64,000 bases of DNA, taken from Tetmemena sp. SeJ-2015 (taxonomy: Eukaryota > Ciliophora > Spirotrichea > Sporadotrichida > Oxytrichidae). Made by a program: the position numbers and the translations under genes. The stretch covers positions 176,692 through 240,691 of the forward strand of contig JAJKFJ010022837.1 in assembly GCA_027382625.1 (NCBI GenBank), in the 5' to 3' direction. Positions 40,017 to 56,066 of this stretch are shown here, one piece after another (position 1 is the first letter of the stretch; every line of letters begins with the position of its first letter). The notes under the pieces were generated by a model that saw only the letters and a list, made by a program, of their open reading frames with translations, made no database searches and was not told the DNA's origin.

Positions 40017-41777
40017 ATGAAGTCTTTTGCAGGGCAGATAGCATTGGGTGCTGACAAGTCTTCCTCGGACAAAACTCAGATGAATCTAGCCAAGATAAGC
40101 TCAGAAACTATCAAAATTGGAGATCTTAAAGACACCTCAAAGAAAGCTAAATACAGCAACATGGTCTTTTTTAATGCTAAAAATACTTATTTCTAGTCTG
40201 TAAATTGTCTTCTAGCTCGAAGATAACATCGAAAACTGTAAAATTACTTTTAAAGCATTGCTATAAAGATGACTAGTTGGAATTGGACGAGTCAGATATA
40301 AATGAGCTGGACTAAAATATGCAAGTATACCTGAGGTTTTAAAAATCACTCACCACTCGCTTCAACTTTAAAAAGAAAAGTATCACCTCCTCAAAAACAT
40401 TCCATCGACTTCTCGACAACTCAGCTAATTCTCAAGAAAAAGAAGCTCCTGAATCTCAGATGCTTCAGTTATCTAATATTTCTTTAATTATGAGATGCCA
40501 ACAAGTACATTATTCGGGCGTCTTTAAAAAGGAATGATAAGCTTGCAGAATAAAACTTCCTTAAAAGGAAAATAATAGAACCAAGGTAAAAAGAAGTGGT
40601 CATTATATTGTAGTTATTTTAAAGTTTAATTTCAGCGATGCTTATGAAATCCATTCCTCTACTTCTAGGATAGATTCTCAAAAAGCTGGAAAGAGCAATC
40701 TACTAAACACTTATCATAACCAAAATCATCAGAAAAAAGTAAGCATAATAAATCCCCGTAAGACCCAGTACAAATATCGTGAAGATGCAGTTATGGAAGC
40801 TGAAAGACTTTTATTGCAATATACAATATTTCTCGTTTTAAAAGAGAAGATGAGTCGTTCGAAGAGGATGAAGAATTCAACTCTGATGCGGGAGAGGATG
40901 GTGTTAGGAAAAATTCGGGATCTCTAATTAAAAAGGAGAAAGACATCTTTACTAACTCATTCGAAGAGAGGGAAGAATGTGTCAAAATTAATTTAATGTG
41001 TAAATTTTTTAACTTCAGGAAGAACATATAGATCCAGAGGTAGAGAAGAATTATCTCCAGTATATGAAGGAGATGAAATTCTCTGACTAGGCTTTGAAAC
41101 TCAAGACTTCTAAACTTATGCTAAATCGTCTTATCAAGGCCTAAGATGAATTAAAACTTTAGAAATATGACTCACAGCTTAATGATCAATTCATAAAATA
41201 ACTTGAGCAAATTGTCATAATATAGAAAGTGAGTAAATTTAGCAAGCTTAGTATAATGTTGAGAATTATCATCTTTTCTTTCATTCTATTCTATTAGGAA
41301 TTATCGTTCTCAACAATCTGTTCTCTATCTTTGCGTTTCTAATAGATGACTACATCACAAGCAGATAGACAGCTATCATTATCGACATTTAAAACTCTTC
41401 AAAAACTAGAGTAATTTAAGTACATGGTTGTTCTATTCTTTTTCTTGGTAGAGTTTGGCTATAACTATTACTAACACCCAACCCCTAAATCTTCTTTTTT
41501 TCAGATGTATTATACTTGGATTGATATAACTACAATTCATAAATCTAAGATTAAACTTTAAATTGCAATATTTTAGCATTGAATGATCACTCCTATTATA
41601 ACTCTTATCATAGATGAGGATAAGCTGCAGCACATATAAATTTTAAGGATACTTAGAGTTTCTAAAGTCATAAGAATCCTACGACTTGTTAAAATGATTA
41701 AGAATTACACAATATTAAATCAATAGCAAGGTGAAGACGATAGATATTATATGCAGCTACAAATATCGATGCTTCAA
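40017..41777 (+). CDS. N-terminal part of a scrambled, inverted Slo-type K+ channel
   Basis: ATG 40017 gives MKSFAGQIALGADKSSSDKT and a long hydrophilic cytosolic region (NELDQNMQVYLRFQKSLTTR, MKEMKFSDQALKLKTSKLML). Hydrophobic segments follow (IIVLNNLFSIFAFLIDDYIT). Then comes an S4-type voltage sensor (ILRILRVSKVIRILRLVKMI) with Arg/Lys every third residue. The segment ends LQISMLQ at pointer TTCAA (41773-41777), which joins the minus-strand pore segment. Several unresolved IESs break the frame between 40190 and 41600. The position of the S4 just before the missing S5-pore part is what a six-TM channel requires. Confidence 0.75.
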
Positions 41778-41910: not shown

Positions 41911-44900
41911 TCAAAATTCAGAAGGCTAAAGAGTTCTTGATGGAGAGATAAACTAGTTTTGAATCGGTTCGTTTATATTAAGTTAATTCTGCTCGTCTTA
42001 AACATGTGACTATGAGAAAGAGGATATGTACTCAGTCTAAATGCTTCCCATCTCTTATTGCGGTTACTATGGGAATTTGCTACTCCCATTCTTACCAGAA
42101 AAGTCTAAAGCTCTTTCAAATACATGGGATTGACTTCCTTCGAGAAGTGGCTGCATTTTCTTCTTATCCATATTCATCTATAGGTTGCTTCTCCTTATCT
42201 TATTCTGAGTTTAAAACTGTGTATACTTTTGAGTTCTCTAGAAGAGTTCTCTTTAGAGCTCACTCAGATTTTTATCTCTGCGCTTCAACTTAGACTCCAA
42301 AGCTTCTATGGCTAGTTACCTTCTCTCTTATCTTACAGAGAGACCGTTGGTATTCCTCTTCTTCATTCTATGCATGAGAAGGAAACTTTCACAAGACTTC
42401 ACAGGAATCTCGCCTAAAACGAGTACTCTATCGTCAAGCTAAAGCTTGAAATCTGGAGAGGGATTTAAAATTAGTTACTCAGTGTGTAAAATTTATTAAG
42501 CTCACACTATAAAATTCAATTTATTAGTGGATTTAAGTTGCTGAAGTTGCACTTGAAATCAGAAAGAGTGGTAAGCACATCATATTGATTGCCTGAAGGT
42601 TGTGAGTTTTGTTCTACAATAACCGGGAATTCAAAATCATCATCGTTATCTAGGGCATCCTTAAGCAAGTCTCGATTCCTTATTGTGAAAGTTTTCGCCA
42701 TTTAGTCGTCCTTCAAGAAAGAGAATTCATCTTCTAGCAAGTTTTCGTGATTAGTTTCCTTAATAAGTCTGTAAATTCCGATGCATAAGCAGTTCATGGT
42801 CATGAAATCATTCATTAGATCTATGAAGGGTTTCTATCTCAGAGCATATAGAGGAGGTACTTAGAGAGTGAGAATATTTGAAAACTCGTTAAAAGGGTTC
42901 TCAAGCATTTGAAATAGAGGTTGACTATCTAAATTCTTGACACCCATTTTTTCAAGTTCCTCCTTCTCTTTAAGTTTCTCTAGTTGTTTTTACTTCTTGT
43001 TCTTTTACAAGAGATCGTTGCTTACGAATTTTTTGAAAGTATCAAGATGATTCTCCTTTTCTGAGCTCCAAGCAATCATAGAGCAGAAAGTATTATTTGC
43101 TAGAATGCGACCATTCATGAAAAAGGGCCAATAATAGTACCTAACTGGTAAATTTAAGAGAGATTTTTTAATAATTAAGGTTGCTATAATGAATCATCTT
43201 TTGGTTCATAGCCGATCATACTTAGTCTCTCAGGATCTGATACCTCACAAATGAGTTTTTCTATGTTGTAGAACTGCTCGATATTTCTGTAAATATTAAT
43301 GGCAGTTCCATCTTCGAGTACTTGTTTCTCCTTCCTATGATCTTGAAGTATTATTACACCGTAGGCCTTAGTGATGCAAGATTTATCGAGATGAGATTTA
43401 TCAAAGGGGTCTCCGTAGAAATGGAAGATATTTCCATACACGTTGTTCATCTTAAAAATATCCAGAGCAATATCTTCGTCATAGAAAAACACGATTGCAC
43501 ATAATTAAAGTTAACATTTTTTGATTGGAAGATCGCATTTCTCTCTAATGGCTTTGACGAAATGGATTACTCCGAGATTAAAACCGAAGATAAGAATTAA
43601 ATAAATGGATGGATCATTCATAGTTAATTGAATGTGATTGCTGATCTTCCCTTGAATTTTGTCTTCATCCCAAAGTTGGTATTGATACTTTTTAAGAGAT
43701 ACCTTATATGTGTACAGATTTCTCAAGTAGTTCTCAAAGCTATGCATAAGTTGCGTCTCTACCTCTTTTTCTGTAATAGCACTGAGAAATTTTCTTGACA
43801 AGAAATTGAGTACTCTTTCTCTTTTAGCCTCTTCAGTTTCAGGTACTGAATTTGAAGATGGTTACTAAGATAACTAAGGTGGATATTTTAGAGCTTATTT
43901 ATCTCTTCTCTTACTTGATGTGGAGCTTTCGTTTCTTATGTGGTGATTCTAATTTCCCTAATTAGATGGCAGCCTAAGCTCATTTTAGTTTTAATTAAAG
44001 TTGTTATGATTAATTTGATCTGTGAATGTTCCGAGCAATTTATTATTAGACCGAGGAGACTATTTATCTTCTATCTTTATCTTCCTTTAATTAAATAAAG
44101 TATTTTTTGAGTATTAAGTATTAACTTCCTCTTTATTTTGATATCAGATAAGATCAGGGGTTTTGAAGAGTCAGAGTGAGCTAGAAATTTGGGAGGAGGA
44201 CCATGATCTGCCTCCGCTAAGTGTCCTTCATCAGTTACTAGTGGTCTCTCCGTTTCAATATTTATACCTTCAGTCTCAAGATAAGAATTAAGCTTCTTTT
44301 TAAATTGATAAAATAATTTTCTCAAAGGGTTATTTGCCAACCAGATACTTCTAAGCTTTAATAGGAACTGTCTAATTTTGTGCTTGAGAAGGAGTATCTT
44401 TATTCTGGTCCCGTTTTTGCCAAAATATATAGAAGCAATAATTTTACCTTGGAGTTTGGCCGCTGCCCATTGGATTTTTCTGACTCTTGCTATATACTTC
44501 ACTCACTTACTGCTGGTAAATCTGGTCGAGTCTAAAATAATATCCATAAGCATCATTTTTATATTGAAGTCTTTCCTATGGTAGATTATCGAAATCTCCT
44601 ATCTCTCTTACCATCAAGTAAGCTCTATCTGTAGCTCCAATCACATAATCTGCACCAGGATTTATAAGGCTCTGCACTGCTAGTTTCTTCTAATTCTCTT
44701 TAGGTTCAGGAACAACTCCAAAAAGCAGCATTTTCAAATAGATCTTCTTGCGTTTAGGAGAATGAATATTTTAAGGACTATACTATGCAGACTATTGCCT
44801 CATAGCTTGAAAGATAGAGTCAACTTGCTAAAGCTAGAGATTTTGAAGATCTTCTTTATTGCATATCTGCTGCTATAATAATCATTCAATATCATAGAAT

Positions 44901-46189
44901 CATGTGAATGGTTATTTATTGGGACTATTGTTGACCCTTAGATGTAATTTTTACTGCTTCATAGAAGGTTTAGCCAATTAGCTCTAGAGGAAACTTTGCG
45001 ATCCTCAACTTATAACTTAGATTTTTATATTGGACACTCTAGCAGGCTTATATACGCTCCTTTGGTATTTTCTCAGGCTGATTTATAAAGAAGTTTGCAA
45101 CTAAAGGAATGATTCCAGGGCTGAAGAGTGCTTAAGCCAGCAATTCACACTTGAACTTGTAGATATTTAAACTGTACATCTTATCTTAAGAGTCGATGAT
45201 ATAGTCTTAAGACAGAAAGTTCTAGATTTGGAACGCTGAGCTCAGTTACACATAAAACTTAGAGCAAAATATTATTTGTAATTCGATAAAGATTAAACTT
45301 CAGAGGCTCTTAGACTTGGGTTTTACGTTTCAGAAAATCTATGAACTAGATTTTACGTTTCGAATTTTGCGCGTCCACAAAAAAAGAATAAAAAAATTTA
45401 CAAATTGCTCTATCTGCTTTAAATATACCGTTTAATAAAATATATTTGCTTAATCTTGTGTAATAGATTCTAAGTGTACATATTGATTATAAATAAATAT
45501 AGAGTGTAGGCATTTGATGACTTGATTACATTTAGATGACCTAAAAAGAATACTGCTTGAGCATTATTTGCAATAAAGCAAATGAAATACTATTTTAAAC
45601 ATTCTGGATGTTTGCTTTCCTGAAAGTAGCATAGTCAATTCCTTCTGTGCATAAGTATTTAACCTTAGATTCAATGAGTTCATGTTTTATCAGTGGCTCT
45701 AAGTCAGTATTCTTGAGAAGTTTGGTTCCAACTATGAGGATCTCGGGGAGAAGATCAATTGTCTTAAGATCAATCAACTGCCAAATGAACATCGCTAGCT
45801 CTTTGGCTTTGTGGTTTCCCAATATAACATAATGATCTTTCATGTAGTACTGTCTATTAAAAAATGAAAATGAATCAATATGTAAATTATTTTTCTATCA
45901 TTAAAGTTTGCTTAACGCATGAGTTGGCCAATTTTAGAGATGTTATCTCCAAAGACTATAAAGACACACAATAAGATCGTCACTACAGTGATTCTAGCGA
46001 CCAGAGTTTTAGGATAGATATCTCCGTAGCCCACAGTTGCAGAAGTAATTATCATATAATAGAGAGCGTCCAAGTAGGCTAAGCTAACAGTAAAAGAATC
46101 ATCGAGCGTTTCAGATATCACATTTACCAAAGCAGCGCCCAAGAACTCAATTATCAACAATTAAGAAGTCAGCAACACAACCTGTTGAA
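41911..46189 (-). CDS. Pore and RCK part of the scrambled Slo-type K+ channel
   Basis: It starts at pointer TTCAA (46185-46189) with QQVVLLTSQLLIIEFLGAAL (S5). The pore helix and selectivity filter read ALYYMIITSATVGYGDIYPK, and S6 reads VVTILLCVFIVFGDNIS. RCK1 begins KDHYVILGNHKAKELAMFIW and includes ELLAQALFSPGIIPLVANFF, typical of Slo/BK channels. RCK2-like blocks follow (IYLILIFGFNLGVIHFVKAI, DIFKMNNVYGNIFHFYGDPF). The Gln-rich tail (QKYTQFQTQNKIRRSNLQMN) ends SPSRTLQPSEF with TGA 41911-41913. About 1,100 residues are expected. IESs are present near 45860-45900, 44500-44560, 43500 and 42500. The N-terminus and S1-S4 come from the plus-strand segment at 40017-41777. Confidence 0.85.
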
Positions 46190-46263
46190 ATATTGGCGAT
46201 ATTTGTATAAAAATGATAAGTAATTTCCTAAAAACGCAAATCTAAATCAAAATTAAATCAAAA

Positions 46264-47186
46264 ATGCAGAACTACATGAGAATAGACCATGGAGGGGATA
46301 ATAGAAATGAATATGACCCAAACGAAATGATTCGACAAAGCAGTAATGATCCAACTTACAAGTACATTCAAGCCCCTATTTCTTAGCTACAAAGAGATTT
46401 TGATCTTATGCAACTCAGAAATTCCACTTAGACTTAGGTGGAAGGCTTGGGGATTGGAGTTGGAGTAGGAATCAGACAATACATTGACCCTGAGCTCAAT
46501 AAAAATGTGCCCGAGAACTTGTATGTAAAGCAAGAGATTGACAGAGTGGCGATACTTTAGAGCATTAACTAGCAAGACACAGAAGAATTAAGAAAGAAGA
46601 TGCTTTTGTTGGACATGCATAAAAAGAATGCAATGAAGCACGATCCGTATCTAGAAACCAATAATAAGAGAGGCATCTTTAATTTTTATAGTTTTTTTTT
46701 TACATATACTGAAATAAGAGACCTGGCCCGGCTATAGGAGTTTCGAGTCAAGAGAGTGATGAAATGCTAGCAAGAAGGAATTTCACATGGACAAAGCCAA
46801 AGTTTGATCTCACCTCTTTTATATATTTAAAATTTAGAATGACTTTAAATTATTTTCTCTGCTAGAATCCAACTCGAACTAGTGGATTGGAAGAAAGTGT
46901 TGTCAGTTTATTGCGCTAAATCAAGTTCAAGCGGTGTATTCTTTGCGAGTCAAGTACACGGAGCTTTTGTAATTAAAGCTTGCGCTGATGTAGTCTCTAG
47001 CTACTTTGCCTCTAAACTTTATCAAAAGCTTTCCATTCCAACACCTGACATGAGAGTATTAGCTCACTATGATAAGGAATACAAGTTTATGCTTCACTCT
47101 CTTGAGAGAGTATCCTTTCATGACGATACTCTGAGATACATGATAAGAATTCACATGGATAGACCATTCATCTTACTTTAAGAGTA
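46264..47186 (+). CDS. N-terminal part of a scrambled, inverted actin-fragmin-kinase-like gene
   Basis: ATG 46264 gives MQNYMRIDHGGDNRNEYDPN and a helical linker (KNAMKHDPYLETNNKR). An IES with the 9-nt pointer AATAAGAGA then joins to PGPAIGVSSQESDEMLARRN. After another frame break the kinase N-lobe reads KVLSVYCAKSSSSGVFFASQ, VHGAFVIKACADVVSSYFAS (VIK lysine), KLYQKLSIPTPDMRVLAHYD and RIHMDRPFILLQE. It ends at pointer AAGAGTA (47180-47186). The rest of the domain lies on the minus strand at 53789 and below. The family comprises atypical kinases first known as actin-fragmin kinase; the substrate here is unknown. Confidence 0.85.
46663..46721 (+). other. IES, pointer AATAAGAGA
   Basis: The 9-nt pointer occurs at 46663-46671 and 46713-46721. 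Removing 50 nt joins LETNNKR to PGPAIGVSSQE in frame. Confidence 0.85.
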
Positions 47187-47385
47187 AATTAGATTCGTAA
47201 TGCTGATAAGAGAAGAAAATCTAAAGCTTTAACTTGCAATTTTATTTAATTCCTACTCTGAAAATTATAGCTATTCTAATTGGATAACTTATACATAAAC
47301 TCTGCCGATTTGTGGCTTTCATAAGATCATATTAGCAGTTAAGATTGATGCCCTCTTTCATTCACACTTCTTACCAATCACACTT

Positions 47386-48177
47386 TCACTATCTTTGTTT
47401 TATCCTAACTATTCTCTCTGCTACTTATCTGAAGAGCTCTTAAATACCCTCTCCAGTCTTCGCAGAAGTCTCTGCTTGAATCATGTTATGCTTTTAACTT
47501 AGCTGCTCCGCCATTGTTTTAGTAACTTTCCTCTGTTGCTCTTCAACGTCGCATTTATTTCCGGCAAGTGCAAGTACGAACTCATCCTGATCGTTGTTAT
47601 TCACCATTTCATTTATCCAAAAATGGCCACTTTGGAAACTTTTATCATCTTAAATGTCGTAGCAAATGATTATAGAATGCTATGAAGTGTATATTTGGAC
47701 TCTAATGATAGCTGCAGCAGCTTCTCGGTAGTAAAGCGACACCATTGATCTGAATCTCTCCGAGCCACCTGTGTCCCAAATGTGCAGCTTGACCTAAGTC
47801 CCATCTCCAAGAGTCACCATTTACTACAGATAAGCGCCTCCAATGGTGACATCATGAGATTCTGAGAAAAGATTCTTGCAATACCTCTGTGCTATACTAG
47901 ATTTGCCTACACCACTGTCTCCAAGAAGGACAACTTTAGCCTCAATAATCTTTTGGTTCTGATTACTCTGTGCGAAAATGTCAGCAGCTCCTTGTGTTGC
48001 TCCCTTTTTCTTAACATTCATTTGGCTGGCGTTTTTACCACCCTTCTTAGAGCTAGAGCCATAGCAGCATCCACCTCCACTGCTGCTTTATTACTAGTGC
48101 TCTTCGTTACGAGAGAGCTATTAAGAGTTTGATGTTGATTGCTGACCTCCGCCGCCTCCTCCACCTCTGGAATTCAT
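47386..48177 (-). CDS. Rab-family small GTPase with N-terminal cysteines
   Basis: ATG 48175-48177 starts MNSRGGGGGGGQQSTSNSQQ. It continues SSSGGGCCYGSSSKKGGKNA, then the GTPase domain: P-loop GDSGVGKSSIAQRY, WDTGGSERFRSM, NKCD and ETSAKTG. It ends RIVRIKQRQ with TGA 47386-47388. One IES (pointer ATCATT) is inside the domain. Two features are odd. The usual WDTAGQE is WDTGGSE, so the catalytic Gln is Ser. The C-terminal CC prenylation motif is absent, while a CC pair sits near residue 42. A Rab5/Rab22-like GTPase of vesicle traffic is likely, with changed hydrolysis and membrane attachment as inference. It lies between the two halves of the scrambled kinase gene. Confidence 0.9.
47665..47709 (-). 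other. IES, pointer ATCATT
   Basis: ATCATT (sense) occurs at 47704-47709 and 47665-47670. Removing 39 nt joins YREAAAAII to CYDIQDDKSFQ. Confidence 0.9.
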
Positions 48178-48337
48178 TTTGCTAATTATTTAATTTCTTA
48201 TTTCAACTAAATGCTTCTTATAGAGATAATAGTCTCATGATGTGCATTTATTCTCTATACCACTTTGAAAGCTTAAAGTGGCAAGTTAACAATATAGAAT
48301 TAAATTTCAATTGTTCAAAGCTCTAAGACTAAATCAA

Positions 48338-49729
48338 ATGGCAGAAAAGGTTCAAGAATTAACCAATAAAATCCACCAGGCACAATCCTTCGAACAAAGC
48401 AACAGGATTGGTGATTCAATTAGACTCTATGAAGAGGTTATCAGAGCTCCACTCGCTCTAGATGATTTGACAGACGAGGCTGTGAGAGCCAAGGAAACTG
48501 CAACATACAGCTTGGCTAAGATCTTCAAGGAGCAGGGCCTGGTTATTAAATTCGTATGTCCTCTTTTCTCTCTACTTACCTTAATTGGTTGATGAACTGA
48601 TCCAACTTCAGAAAGACTTACTTCCCTTGTTCATGGATCTCCCTAAATCGAAGACTGCAAAGATCATTCGTTCCCTTTTCGATTTGACCACCAAGATTGA
48701 AGGTCAGGATGCAGCCCTTGTAGAGTTGTGCAAGTATATCATTGAATGGTGCGAGAAGGAGAGTCGCTCTTTCCTTCGCATGAGGATTGAGAACAAGCTT
48801 GCGGAGCTCTATTTCAAATTAGAGAAGTACCATGACTCTCTCTAGCTGCTCAACAAGCTCACATATGAACTCAAAAAGAAGGAAGATAAGTAACTGATTG
48901 TAGAGGCTCAACTAGTTGAGAGCAAGGTGTATCACGCTCTCGAGAACTTGCCAAAGTCAAAGGCCTCCCTCACTGCAGTTAAAACCACCGCAAACTCTAT
49001 CTAAACTATTAGTAAAACTTGACTTATACTATGATACTTAGCATTGATTATGTTGTGCCACTTCTGCAAGCTGAGATCGATTTCATGTCTGGGCTAATTG
49101 CTTGCGACGAGAAAGACTACATCACAGCTTACTCTTACTTCTATGAAACCTTCGAAGGCTATAGATCCATGGGAGACTCCCAAGCTGGCAGAGCTTTCAA
49201 GTTCATGCTCTTCTCCAAGGTGATGAGCAAGCAGAGTGATGACGCGCTCAACCTCATAAACTCCGCAGTAGCCTTGAAGTATTAGGGAAGAGATGTTGAC
49301 GCTATGAAGGAGGTAGCACTCGCTAACAAGCAGCAGAACCTATTGGCTTTCGAGAAGTGCAAAGAAGTCTATCAGAGAGAGTTGTTGGAGGATATGGTCA
49401 TCCGCCGTCACTTTAACTACCTTTACAACACTCTGTTGGAAGATAACCTCAAGAAGATTATCGAGCCTTACTCTGAGGTGCAAATTGCCTTCGTTGCTGA
49501 TAAAATTGGACTTCAATTCGATAAGGTACTTCAAAAGCTGAGTGAAATGATTCTTGACGAGAAGATCGCAGGTACCTTAGATCAGGGACGTGACTGCCTC
49601 ATAATCTTTGAGCAGTCTGAGTCAACTGAGATGTTCGAGCACAGCTTAGACATATTCAAGAATCTAGATGGAGTGCTTGACTCACTTTACGAAAAGACTC
49701 AGAAGTTCAGGGAGCATTATCACCATTGA
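48338..49729 (+). CDS. RPN6: 26S proteasome lid subunit RPN6 (PSMD11)
   Basis: ATG 48338 gives [20 protein letters not shown]. The helical-repeat region includes [20 protein letters not shown] and [20 protein letters not shown]. The PCI domain carries [60 protein letters not shown], ending [18 protein letters not shown] with TGA 49727-49729. About 430 residues, the usual family length. IES one uses pointer GGTT; IES two is near 49000-49048 with a minimal TA pointer and joins NSI to [15 protein letters not shown]6 clamps the proteasome lid to the core particle. It is unscrambled and sits between the halves of the inverted kinase gene. Confidence 0.95.
48541..48590 (+). other. IES, pointer GGTT
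   Basis: GGTT occurs at 48541-48544 and 48587-48590. Removing 46 nt joins KEQGLV to [12 protein letters not shown] in frame. Confidence 0.9.
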
Positions 49730-49848
49730 GAGGGAGATTTTGCAAGTTCATTTTATGTTTATGTGACTATAGAATTAACCTTAGCTTTCTTTAAGTAAAG
49801 TTATGAGGAAGATGAGTTGATTACTATTTGAAATTAATCTATTTTAAA

Positions 49849-52620
49849 ATGAAAATTCTAGATGAGCATAAGAAAATTAAAACCCTTTCAGATTGCCTCT
49901 ATCCTACTTATCACCTCAATCCTTATTTTAAGAGGAGTTGAAAGCTAACAGGCTTGTTCAAAGTTATAATGCAGGTAGCTTACAGATGAGGAATCAGCTG
50001 ATGGAACCTGCCTCAAAACGACAGTTGATACCAACGATTCGGATGGTTCTAAGACAGTCACTATCGCTTACAAGAGATTCTAAAGCAAATTCTAATACTC
50101 TTTTAAATATATATCTATCTCTTGGATATGTTTGCTTAACAAGAGTGGATACATTAAATTATATTTGAAATTATCTAGCCTCAAGCGTAAACAAAAATGA
50201 GCACTCTTATTGCTTCAAACATGAAGGAGGGAAGTAGGTCACCTCACAGAATGATCAAGAACGGTAGTCTTACTCAGCTAGCCTAGCTATCACAAGCAAA
50301 AGTAGTGCTTCCATTTTAAAGAACATTACAGTTAAAAATATTATAATTCCAACTGCTCAAGATCCATTACAAAAGCTGAATGGTGCAAGTCCCAACAGAA
50401 ACGCTCCCTATCTTCAGTTATAAGTAAATTAATCAGGGCTCACCAACCAGGGTAGCTAAAAAGTAATAAAGCAATTCAATTTGTAGCCGTAAGCCAAAAT
50501 TAACGATCAAAGAAGATCCTCACTAGATTAAAGTTAGCTCAAAGCTTTGGCTAGGAACTAAAGCGCAGTTATGGGCTATAATTAGAACAGCTTAACTTAA
50601 AATGTTGCGAATATGTAGAGTTAAAAGGCAATAGAAGTGTTCAAAATGCCTCCTAAAGATCAGAACAAGGAGCATACTTTTTGGCTTTAGAGATTGAAGA
50701 AAGAAGGAAACGGAAAATACAGGTTAGATTTATATGATTGCAATATTTATTATTATTATTTTGGCATATTTGAGTTCTTGATTTATCTAATTTTTTCTTC
50801 TAGATCAATAAATAAGGGCCTAGAATATGGTTTGGCAAAGAATATTACTATTCAAGATGCTCGAGATCTCGCACCTGAATATACTTTTATTTCTATTTTT
50901 GATAAAAACATATTTTCAATTTAGTCCTGCGGATGCATATGACATAAATAAAACTACTGTGCTTGAGAATTTGTAAAAGAAGTTACGATACCCCTCCAAT
51001 ACCCAAGGATTCTAATAAAATGGAAATGCTCTTGAAGATCAGAGAAACTACCAATCAAATGACCTTCTGAGTAGAAATTAAAGTTAGTTCCTTAACAAGA
51101 ATCATACTGAGGGTGGGAGATTAGCAGCTAATCTACAAGATAGATTTTATCAATCCTCAAACAATCACCAAGATTCATCTGCTCTCTTAAACTAGAACTC
51201 ACTATATCAAGATTCGAACACCAATTCACAGTCTAACTTAACTGAAGGCATAAATGTTTACTCCAAGTACTATATCCCTCCCTAGAAAAATCCAGCAGTA
51301 CTAAAGACAGCTGGCATCAATGCGTATAAATTTCATTTACTCGCCAGAAAGAAGCAGCTGAAATAGATGCCTTGGGTGTAGGCAAGGATTGACTTAAGTT
51401 TCCCAGACATCAAGTAGTAGATGCTCAAAATGAATATAAAGGATGATCTTCAAGAGAAAGAGGAGCAGGATAGATAGCTTAGAAGCCAGTTTGGAGGAAA
51501 TATGTATGAATTTCATAATAATTTCTTGTAGTAGCAACAGTAGCAGCAATATCAACAACAGCAACTACTATTGAACTAGCAACAGACATAAGAGCAAGAT
51601 TTTAAGAATTAAATGGGGAGTAGGAACTTCAATTTGTTGCAAGGAAATTCAAGATAAGTTAACAGAACCGTTGGAGATATATCACCTAGCAGTTCTTAAC
51701 CTAGACTTGAGAATAGAATATACAACATAGCGGAGGGAAGTAACACTATGTTTTCTCCACCTTAATCAATATAAGCTCAGACCGGAGGGAAAAAAGCAAG
51801 ATATGATAGAAGCTCAAAAGAAGAAGTCGTTTATTTTCTTTTCTCTCAAAAGCTAACTTCAATATTGTTTCTAACTAGGATCAGCAAGCTTTGATCAAAA
51901 GAGACAGCAGCTAAGATCTTAGATAGAATCTTGAATTTCAAGGTAGGACTTTCTCAACAAGTCAGCTTAGAAGAGTGCAAGAACAAGTTGAGCAAGAAAT
52001 TAAAAGAATTCAAGTCAAGTCCCTCCTTCACTTAGATATTCTTTAGTTTTAACAGTCGAGTTTTAAATTTAAGTCCCCTCTCCAGGGAGCAACTTTGAAT
52101 TAGAGTAGAGAAGTCTTACTTTCAAAGAATAGTAAAGATGATACACGCTAATTATCATAGCCAAAGCAGAGAAATGAATTCCAAAAGGCAAAGAGCTATC
52201 TCAATCAAAGCTAAAATCTGATTAAGTTCAGCAATCCTTATTAGCTTGAGCCAACCATAGAGTCATCTATGAATCAAAAGCCATACAAGATGACCATGGA
52301 GCTCAGTCAAATTATTTCTTAACAGCACCAAGGTGTTAAGAAATTGGGCAGCCCTACCAATTAAAAATCCTAAACTTTTCTTTAAAAGCATCATGCTCCT
52401 GATAATTAAATCACGGGAGGAGCATAGAACTTTGCAATTAAGAGCAACTACACAAATTACTAGACAGGGGCTTAGAATAATAAACCTCAGACTCCTTTTA
52501 AAGCGCTAAAGGAATAGATTGTTAGTAGGAGGTAGTAATCAATTGTCTTTTGACATGGCATAAAAAAGATTCTCTAGTCAGATGAAATAAGAATACCTAA
52601 GTTTTAATTAATTTGAATGA
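49849..52620 (+). CDS. Large Gln-rich low-complexity protein
   Basis: The candidate ATG at 49849 (MKILDEHKKIKTLSDCLYPT) is followed after frame breaks by coding from about 50240: LAITSKSSASILKNITVKNI, a folded-looking part (EVFKMPPKDQNKEHTFWLQR) and then VLENLQKKLRYPSNTQGFQQ. Next is INVYSKYYIPPQKNPAVLKT, and then poly-Gln near 51525-51580 (FLQQQQQQQQYQQQQLLLNQ). The end is AQKRFSSQMKQEYLSFNQFE with TGA 52618-52620. About 800 residues. IESs are evident near 49935, 50190, 50720-50790, 50880-50920 and 51840. No domain is recognised. It is convergent with the inverted half of the kinase gene, whose 3' end may overlap it by about 40 nt. Confidence 0.6.
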
Positions 52621-53789
52621 CTGTTTGCAATATCCTTATGATCCAATTAGAGGGTAATTATTTTAAAGTAAGTTTAAGATCTTATTTTGAAATTTAGAAT
52701 CACTGCGATTGCTAGTTTATTTATGAAGACATGGGAGTTTAACTTCTGCCTGCATTTAGTGCAGTTCTATCCTCTTCCTCTTTGAGCTACTAAATGAGGT
52801 AGCTCCCTTTACCTTTAACAAAAAAGATATTGATTGATTCCTTCAATAACATGACCAATTACGAAAGTGAAGAGATTGGTCTTGAGAACCCACTTCACTT
52901 CCTCCTCATACACCTTCATCGTCTTGTCTACACTATTCATGGTTATTATTAATAGTTAAGGAATTAATCATCCCCTAACGGGCATATAATACTTAATCGA
53001 TTTAAAGTAATTCACAGGCGTAACTCCTTGATCAGTTGTGCCACGTCACCGCGAAAGCCCACCGTCACTATTCATGGTAATTTCAAAGAATTCTAGTTGT
53101 ATTTCATCAATTCCATGCTGCCAGACCCCTTTCCAGTCCTTTCCAATAGCGGTTTTAGCTTCCTCGTATGCAGTCACTGCGCTTCTGTAGCCCTCGTTTT
53201 GAATATTGAAGAAGCCAATTACAATTCCTTCTATGATTCTGAATGCTGCACGACCCTTGATATCGTACAAAGTATGATCATGATAGAAATCAAGCACTCT
53301 CTTAATTGAAGGATAGTGATAGTCGTTCACTGCGACATCGCCATTTATAATAAGTCTTAGGTCTTAGAACACTGCTTCTAAGAACGATTCAATGCGTTTC
53401 AAATAGTCCCTTAGATAATTTATCTAACCCTTATCTTTTTAGTGGATGGAGAAAGTTTTATTATCGATGGCAACAGCACTTGAGAATTAGAAGTCTGAGT
53501 AGTCCATGTTTGCTATCTTTTCATCGTCAATCTTCTCATCTGTGTTGATCTCAAAAAGCAAATTGGTACTATTTTAAAAAAGAAATTGAACTTTACCTAA
53601 TCAAACTAAAATTTCCGTGGTTGTCCCAAATCATGGGCATTCGATCAGGGTTGTTTACAACACAGTCTGCAGCTATAATCTTCCCAATATTTATAAGTCG
53701 GTTGGAGGCGTCTGGATAAGCAACATTGAAGCATCTGTCAGCTCTCTTAGCACCCATATTAGCCAAACTCACTGCTGGAATGTACTCTT
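52578..53789 (-). CDS. C-terminal part of the scrambled actin-fragmin-kinase-like gene
   Basis: It begins at pointer AAGAGTA (53783-53789): QEYIPAVSLANM, then GKIIAADCVVNNPDRMPMIW and DNHGN, the catalytic-loop region of this kinase family. After an IES near 53540-53590 it continues NSTNLLFEINTDEKIDDEKI, YLRDYLKRIESFLEAVFQDL, IKGRAAFRIIEGIVIGFFNI and EIQLEFFEITMNS. A 135-nt IES with a 13-nt pointer (52931-52943 and 53066-53078) joins to VDKTMKVYEEEVKWVLKTNL. The in-frame TGA is 52578-52580, but the true C-terminus may be earlier because the last part is less protein-like. The N-terminal half is 6.6 kb away on the plus strand. Confidence 0.85.
52931..53078 (-). other. IES with a 13-nt pointer
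   Basis: CACTATTCATGGT (plus strand) occurs at 52931-52943 and 53066-53078. Excision joins FFEITMNS to VDKTMKVYEEEVKW in frame and removes a TGA. Confidence 0.85.
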
Positions 53790-53947: not shown

Positions 53948-56066
53948 TCAACTGCTTTTATCGTTACCCTCTCCGGGATCATCCTCTTCCCCTCCTTCTT
54001 ATTCTTCGCCTCCTTCTCCCTCATTCTATTCTCCATCTTCACAATCCTCACCCTCTTCATTTTCTTCATTTTCCTCAGGATTTTCATTATCCTTACCTCC
54101 ATAAGAAATGGGATTCCCATCCTCATCTTCTTCGTAATGATATTAGTAGCCCTCCTCTGCATTTCCATCATCCTCTAAGTCACTCTTGACTTCCTCATTT
54201 AGAGCGTCTTCCATATCTAAGTCATCTTTATCATCATCTAAGTCAGTATTCATGTACTCATTAAACTCCTCTAGGTCAATCTTAGTCGTGTCAAGAGTCA
54301 TAGAAACTGGACAGTGATCACTACCCCAGTATTCGTTATGAATTTCTGCGTCTAGCAAGGTGTGCTTGACTTAGCGACTCACTAGAAAATAGTCCAACCT
54401 CCAACCCTTATTCTCCTTGCGGCTCTTATCTCTGATATCCCAAAAGCTGTACTTAATTTTTCCTGGATACAACTCTCTGAAGGTATCTACAAAGCCCATT
54501 TTCGTAAAATTTGAGAAGCTTTAACGCTCCTCATTAGTGAAGCAGGCCATGCGCTCGTTTCTCTTAGGGTCAAAAATATCTATCTCTTAATGAGCAACGT
54601 TCATATCTCCACACAAAACTACAGGCTTTCCCTTGCGCTCTAACCCTTTCAAATAGGCTCTAAAGTCTAAGTCCCACTCATTACAACGATATTCATGCCA
54701 TTTCAAAGTTGCTCCAGAATTAGGCACATATACTCCAACTAGAAAGAATTTCTCAAACTCTAGAGTAATAGTTCTGCCTTCTTTATCGTGCTTGTGCACA
54801 CCGATGTCATAGGCAACACTCAGTGGCTTCAATTTTGAAAAGATAATTGTGCCAGCGTAACCTTTAATAGGAGGCTTACAGCAATTCCAATACTAGAGAT
54901 ATTCAGCTGGAAATTTGTCCTTCATCCTATCTGCAGCCATTCTCTCCTCGTCAATCTTTGACTCTTAAACGCAAAGAATAGTTGGGTTAGCTTGTTCGAA
55001 GAACTCCTGGATTCTGTTCTTCTTCAGTATAGCTCTTATCCCATTCACATTCCAGCTCCAAATTTGCAGCTTCGACATATCCACGTTAGCAGCTGCTTAA
55101 TCAATTAAAGAAGGCTGCCTTGAAATTTACTTTAACAGAATTCCACCTCTTTGCTACTGCTATTGGTTTTACTTAGAGTTGTATTTCTGATTGCGATTGT
55201 ATTACAACCGACCAGGGAAATTAGAATTGAAGCCACCACCTCCATTTGCGCCTCCTCCACCTCCATTTTAAGGATTCATCTTATTGAAGTAGCCGTTACC
55301 TCCATTACCTTTCTGGTATTCGGTTCTACCAGCATATCCTACATGAGTTCTTTTTTAAGGTATCATATTACTGTTGCTATTTTGAGTGGGATTAGATGTA
55401 TTATTGCTGCTTCAATATTTGTCAGAATAACTGTTCTAGTTGAAAGTTGAAGCTGACGGAGAGTTCCCAATGTTAGCTTTGTTTGAATGTCCATTATTTG
55501 AATACGGGGCTGCACCAGAATTTCCCCCTCCATTTGGGTTCTATTAATTGGGTTGCGATGTTTTTCCATTCGAAGATGCTGTAGTGTCAGCTCCGCCTTC
55601 ATCCTCTTCATAATAATCACCACTTTCTTCACGACCTTGAGCATCTTCTCCTTAAGGTGAATTTGAGTTTGATCTGCTTTCGGGATTGAACTAATTTGAT
55701 TTTCATAAGCACCCTGGCCTCCTCTTGAGGGGTTGATGAGAGTGGGATCATTGTTTAAAAAATTAGATTGTAAATTATTGTAGGACTTTGAGGAAGCCAC
55801 ATAATGTTGGAATGCCGCCTGATTGCTTTTTACTCCGTCACCATTCTGCGGTCCCATGAATTTCTCCAAGGAGCTCTGCCCCTTAGCAGCATTTTTCTCT
55901 GCAATTTTCTTGAACCTGGCAACTGGTCCCCTATCTGTGGGTACTAAGTGTCTCTATAAGGAGTTAGCATACTTTATTAGATACAAATTTGCTGATTATG
56001 TGAACTTACATCGTATATTTGCTTACGTTTTATAGCTGAAAAGCTGTGAGGGTCTCTTCTATTCAT
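53948..56066 (-). CDS. Exonuclease III/APE-type endonuclease with long Gly/Asn/Gln-rich N-terminal extension
   Basis: ATG 56064-56066 gives MNRRDPHSFSAIKRKQIYD. An intron follows (55954-56009, GTAAGT...TTATAG, with a GCTAAC branch-like site), then RHLVPTDRGPVARFKKIAEK and a Gly/Asn/Ser-rich linker. The nuclease domain starts near 55078: LQIWSWNVNGIRAILKKNRI, CVQESKIDEERM, GYAGTIIFSKL, GVYVPNSGATLKWHEYR, VLCGDMNVAHQEID, KGWRLDYFLVS, SDHCPVSM. All catalytic motifs (N, E, Y, D/N, DH) are present. A Glu/Asp-rich tail ends DDPGEGNDKSS with TGA 53948-53950. The 1.1-kb nuclease part has no IES. It acts in base excision repair at abasic sites. One TGA near 55408 and a shift near 55660 in the linker remain unexplained. 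Confidence 0.9.

Follow-up and report, generated by a model that had tools for sequence, protein, structure and literature searches.

A 64,000-nucleotide stretch of DNA from Tetmemena sp. SeJ-2015 (the window) was analysed, and the gene of a kinase with an actin-fragmin-kinase-like domain (PF09192) was followed up. This gene is very probably a scrambled, nested and inverted germline locus of a spirotrich in which TAA and TAG encode Gln. Its parts were found on opposite strands, and a shared pointer was located at their edges in protein register, as in a scrambled gene. The original prediction had placed the N-lobe on the plus strand, ending at 47186, and the remainder on the minus strand from 53789. 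This was borne out by the two profile matches, which covered PF09192 positions 17-126 and 146-281. It had also reported AAGAGTA at both edges and an in-frame join, and both were found again (47180-47186 on the plus strand, 53789-53783 on the minus strand), with the junction reading HMDRPFILLQEYIPAVSLANM in genetic code 6. The joined halves formed one PF09192 domain spanning positions 17-281 of 282 (8.8e-48, cut-off 24 bits). The score rose from 72.8 and 73.6 bits for the separate halves to 163.6 bits on joining.

Four kinase homologues were found by protein search, in which a 607-aa protein with the TAGAAT version of the second internal eliminated sequence (IES 2) was used. Three of them (P0001-P0003), on contigs of 1,667, 1,873 and 1,731 bases, were gapless at the join and had SMDRPFILLQEYIPAI there (wider reading DRPFILLQEYIPAI). 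The fourth (P0004), on a 196,740-base contig, had DMPFLLVYEYIPC at the join. The gapless alignment of P0001-P0003 and the profile, which covered both halves as one domain, agreed with the claim that the join is the one the kinase family requires. An alignment profile compared with actin-fragmin kinase 1cja also gave a match across the join (7.6e-21). When the whole genome was searched with PF09192, three matches were obtained (one on the plus and two on the minus strand), and all were at the kinase locus. In addition, the DNA of the N half had a single match in the whole assembly, which was its own locus. The inverted split and its join were well supported because the family profile, the homologues and the pointer agreed and no further PF09192 locus was found.

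The pointer was also compared with chance. Of 200,000 random placements on opposite strands, 0.2% gave a run of at least 7 matching bases at a fixed register of 25 bp. AAGAGTA was common in the window, with 21 copies observed and 17.6 expected, and therefore it cannot guide the join alone. The kinase would consist of about five or six macronuclear-destined segments (MDSs), the first three on the plus strand and the others on the minus strand 6.6 kb away. During development, one AAGAGTA copy would be joined to the other with inversion, and parental RNA would presumably guide this step, as described for Oxytricha. The join would unite the lysine of the N half, which we take to be the ATP-site lysine, with NNPDR and WDNHGN in the C half, which we take to be catalytic-site motifs, in one predicted somatic gene. 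A duplication-and-decay origin of the inverted join, a model given in the available passages of PMC9797194, was also tried and dropped. The best alignment gave E = 0.27 at the kinase junction and E = 0.058 at the K+-channel junction described below. In register around the kinase pointer, 8 of 15 bases agreed upstream and 7 of 15 downstream, and this was not counted as evidence.

Several points weighed against this reading of the kinase. For a scrambled junction, a pointer of 7 bp is short, and copies of this 7-mer are common in the window. IES 2 has two candidate limits, the break near 53.6 kb has two candidate readings, and the 3' end of the kinase was not located in the frame read down to 52600. 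The genome search scored the best candidates only and ignored introns, and it might therefore miss a second copy that has diverged. Other explanations of the split were weighed as well. An assembly chimera would mean that the assembler inverted or misplaced the intervening stretch and that the true germline order is collinear. The window sits at the end of its contig (240,691 bases, in a 146-Mb assembly of 5,213 contigs), which counts for a chimera. However, the breakpoints were located at a shared 7-mer in exact protein register, with differing DNA beyond on both sides. The neighbouring K+-channel gene was arranged in the same way, with a pointer of 11 bp, and we consider a chimera very unlikely.

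It is slightly less likely still that the kinase gene was disrupted long ago by an inversion in the germline and is no longer made. Such a dead locus would fit the fact that the somatic kinase product is predicted rather than observed. However, conserved motifs and open frames were present in both halves, and no intact copy elsewhere was found in the genome-wide PF09192 search. The long open frames in both halves would also fit two separate genes, one per half, but long open frames are common where TGA is the only stop. The halves met within one conserved stretch, and all four homologues were single proteins. This explanation is hardly credible and is the least probable of those weighed.

Table. 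Features of the kinase locus, the enclosed genes and the adjoining K+-channel gene (positions in the window).
Feature	Position	Strand	Details
Kinase N half, about three MDSs	46264..47186	+	PF09192 17-126, 4e-20, 72.8 bits; ends in pointer AAGAGTA 47180-47186
Kinase IES 1, 50 bp including one pointer copy	46663..46712	+	9-bp repeat AATAAGAGA at 46663 and 46713
Kinase IES 2, two candidate limits	within 46814..46862	+	46814-46856 (43 bp, CTCT) or 46835-46862 (28 bp, TAGAAT)
Kinase C half	52600..53789	-	PF09192 146-281, 2.4e-20, 73.6 bits; begins with AAGAGTA 53789-53783; frame open at least to 52600
Short intron or IES in C half	53560..53613	-	GTAAAG..TAG intron of 28 bp, or AAATT/AATTT-repeat IES of 49 bp
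Interruption of C half, 135 bp including one repeat copy	52931..53065	-	SINE-like element 53066-52944; 13-bp duplication ACCATGAATAGTG (minus strand)
Rab-like GTPase, 250 aa after removal of 39-bp IES	47389..48177	-	AATGAT repeats at 47665 and 47704
RPN6, 436 aa after IES removal	48338..49729	+	removed 48549-48582 (34 bp, AATT) and 49002-49048 (47 bp, TA)
Short open reading frame, signal-like N terminus, Cys residues	49862..50100 (about)	+	possibly first MDS of another gene
Gln-rich open reading frames with frame breaks	50197..52553	+	open-reading-frame reading
K+-channel N half, S1-S4	40900..41768 (5' limit approximate)	+	ends in pointer TACAAATATCG 41758-41768
K+-channel C half: S5, pore, S6, Slo-like RCK pieces	42519..46207 (lower limit approximate)	-	starts at TACAAATATCG 46207-46197

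The coordinates of the features are collected in the Table. The plus-strand half of the kinase was not a single uninterrupted reading, which corrects the original prediction: 46663-46712 (IES 1) and a second stretch (IES 2) must be removed. Removal of IES 1 gave YLETNNKRPGP, which compared with YLETDNKRPGP in P0001 and P0002 and YWETENKRPGP in P0003. In the case of IES 2, either version restored the frame and removed the in-frame TGA, and the CTCT version was closer to LTSNKLNL of the homologues, as judged by eye. In the C half, removal of 28 bp near 53.56-53.61 kb restored the frame. The joined frame had no stop as far as 52600, and the true 3' end was not located within it. Directly beyond the C half, an exonuclease III/APEX-like gene was observed at 53951-55411 on the minus strand (Exo_endo_phos, 1e-30).

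Three complete genes had been predicted between the halves. The Rab-like GTPase and RPN6 stood as such after removal of short IESs, and the Gln-rich open reading frames were not established as one complete gene. The Rab-like GTPase matched the Ras profile over positions 1-160 of 162 (1.1e-46). The best homologues of RPN6 gave a coverage of 98-100%, and among matches with a named source, a 1,468-base contig of Halteria grandinella gave the best one (71% over 98%). Of the ten best matches of RPN6, nine were on contigs of 1.4-2.8 kb, as would fit a separate nanochromosome, and the other was on a contig of 5.1 kb. The supplied pieces of the Gln-rich open reading frames had no Pfam match. A genome search for a continuation of the short open reading frame matched its own locus only. 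The Rab-like gene, RPN6 and the Gln-rich open reading frames would be processed on their own within the intervening segment. We infer that Rab and RPN6, which lie inside the kinase locus, form other somatic chromosomes.

The Slo-like K+-channel gene to the left of the kinase is a predicted second inverted split gene of the same kind. Its join at the 11-bp pointer was in frame. The pore part matched Ion_trans_2 (9.3e-12), and 43118-44143 matched Slo-like_RCK (3.2e-08). The Ion_trans profile gave 0.0036 for the S4 piece alone and 2.3e-05 for the pore piece alone, and the pointer join gave 8.2e-08 over positions 80-222. The N-half DNA was unique in the assembly. Among random blocks of the same size, 17 of 300 shared some 11-mer, and therefore the protein frame and the place carry part of the weight for this join. 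The pointer TACAAATATCG had 3 copies in the window compared with 0.01 expected. The third copy was located at 40769-40779 on the plus strand, and a wider repeat was looked for around it and not seen.

The window reads as spirotrich germline (micronuclear) DNA. This was suggested by the pointer-flanked breaks in its genes (9, 6, 4 and 13 bp in the kinase and the enclosed genes), the abundance of DDE_3 transposase and a contig that lacked C4A4 arrays. At least 150 DDE_3 matches were found genome-wide (150 of 921 candidates scored). C4A4 arrays of two and a half repeats occurred at 67 places in the assembly and at none on the contig of the window, a count that lacks a useful control because the pattern reads the same when reversed. 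The genes of the window translated in code 6, in which TAA and TAG are Gln and TGA is the only stop. C4A4 telomere-like repeats were seen from base 1 on contigs C298, C586, C672, C739, C770, C1030, C1301, C4311 and C4966; these contigs may represent the ends of germline chromosomes, the ends of transposons or contamination from somatic DNA.

The 135-bp interruption of the C half was repeated DNA resembling a short interspersed nuclear element (SINE). At least 39 further places matched it at 90-99% over about 114-158 bp (40 of 600 candidates scored). We examined 20 of these with their flanks (L010-L012 and L042-L058), which gave 21 copies with that of the kinase (52931-53078). In an alignment of 20 copies, the 5' end was constant and the AT-rich 3' tail was variable. 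Exact duplications of 12-16 bp flanked 19 of the 21 copies; one had 7 bp and none was found in another. The flanks of L052 and L053 are the same, and the two may represent a single place found on two contigs, in which case the count would be 18 of 20. When flanks were mismatched, 2 of 420 pairings reached at least 12 bp, and both may be L052/L053 cross-pairs. Judged from these copies, the family has the SINE pattern of near-identical short copies with long target-site duplications. The element contained TGGCACAACTG, which we call A-box-like on the presumed A-box consensus. ARAGORN found no tRNA in the window, Rfam gave no match there at E up to 1, and a tRNA or Rfam identity of the element was dropped.

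Collapse of the 13-bp duplication ACCATGAATAGTG restored the kinase frame. When the element was left in, a TGA followed soon after the catalytic domain (EITMNSDGGLSR-stop). A further case was L050, in which collapse of the duplication left an open frame of 992 aa, with 501 aa to one side of the site and 491 aa to the other, compared with 529 aa with the element. At least 450 aa open on both sides occurred at none of 5,000 random window points, and none of the 18 other empty sites matched L050. The longest open run in the window was 555 aa. L012 was located close to where an acyl-CoA-oxidase-like frame begins (9.9e-06, 26.5 bits against a cut-off of 25), and the matched domain was entirely to one side of the element. 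These results suggested that SINE-like retroposons in coding DNA might be removed as IESs, with the 12-16-bp target-site duplications acting as long pointers, and we hold this proposal to be evenly balanced.

Some observations spoke against such removal, in the kinase or as a general rule. Truncation of the kinase by a retained element might be tolerated. With 150 aa open on both sides, one of the 20 sites (L050) stood out. With 100 aa, 6 of the 20 sites including the kinase were open, which was near the 1,248 of 5,000 points in the window. Most copies thus showed no sign of lying in a gene. Retroposition as a putative source of long pointers is a bolder and less secure reading than the nested inverted kinase gene, and its basis is the kinase itself, together with one further case that is strong (L050) and one that is weak (L012). 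In the literature covered on retroposons, SINEs, duplications and IESs, including passages of PMC6765146 and PMC3464196, no IES derived from a SINE was found in which the duplication served as the pointer; this coverage was limited and is no proof of absence. If IES removal of such elements is true, retroposition would be a continuing source of long-pointer IESs, including 52931-53065 in the kinase. The interruption gives a hint at one way in which new cut-sites may arise, and recent insertions of known sequence with known duplications allow a direct test of the origin of long pointers.

Mobile DNA in genes with a target duplication at the IES edge is also described for other ciliates. The available parts of PMC12242761 describe TBE elements with ANT ends resembling 3-bp pointers, and those of PMC9942856 describe the IESs of Blepharisma that bear miniature inverted-repeat transposable elements. 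Those cases are DNA transposons with duplications of 2-3 bp, whereas the element described here is SINE-like with 12-16 bp and its removal is putative. In the case of the protein, the actin-fragmin kinase (PF09192; 1cja) shares the catalytic domain and aligned across the join; the relation is distant, and the activity of the kinase described here is predicted.

The kinase locus was compared with nested and inverted loci of spirotrichs, as given in the accessible sections of three papers. In Oxytricha trifallax (PMC5940158) and Tetmemena (PMC9797194), nested 'Russian doll' loci likewise have complete loci between the MDSs of a scrambled outer gene. Of 15,811 contigs in O. trifallax, 1,301 contain others; one layer is present in 1,163 of these, and 62.3% of the one-layer cases are scrambled (PMC5940158). 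Loci side by side in one intervening segment count as one layer in its nesting index, and one layer is the commonest nested class there. The known extremes reach four layers, whereas the kinase locus would have one layer with three loci side by side and is known from germline sequence alone. Inversion scrambling in spirotrichs (PMC10901763) is of the same kind, with MDSs on opposite strands, and both split genes of the window were read from sequence. The share of scrambled chromosomes with inversion only is 21.4% in O. trifallax, 37.7% in Halteria grandinella, 45.0% in Euplotes vannus and 69.4% in Strombidium cf. sulcatum (PMC10901763). We hold the nested inverted kinase gene to be genuine with high confidence, and it falls in this published spirotrich class (PMC5940158, PMC9797194, PMC10901763). 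Together with the adjoining K+ channel, the kinase offers a clear and checkable nested inverted case with a second inverted split gene alongside.

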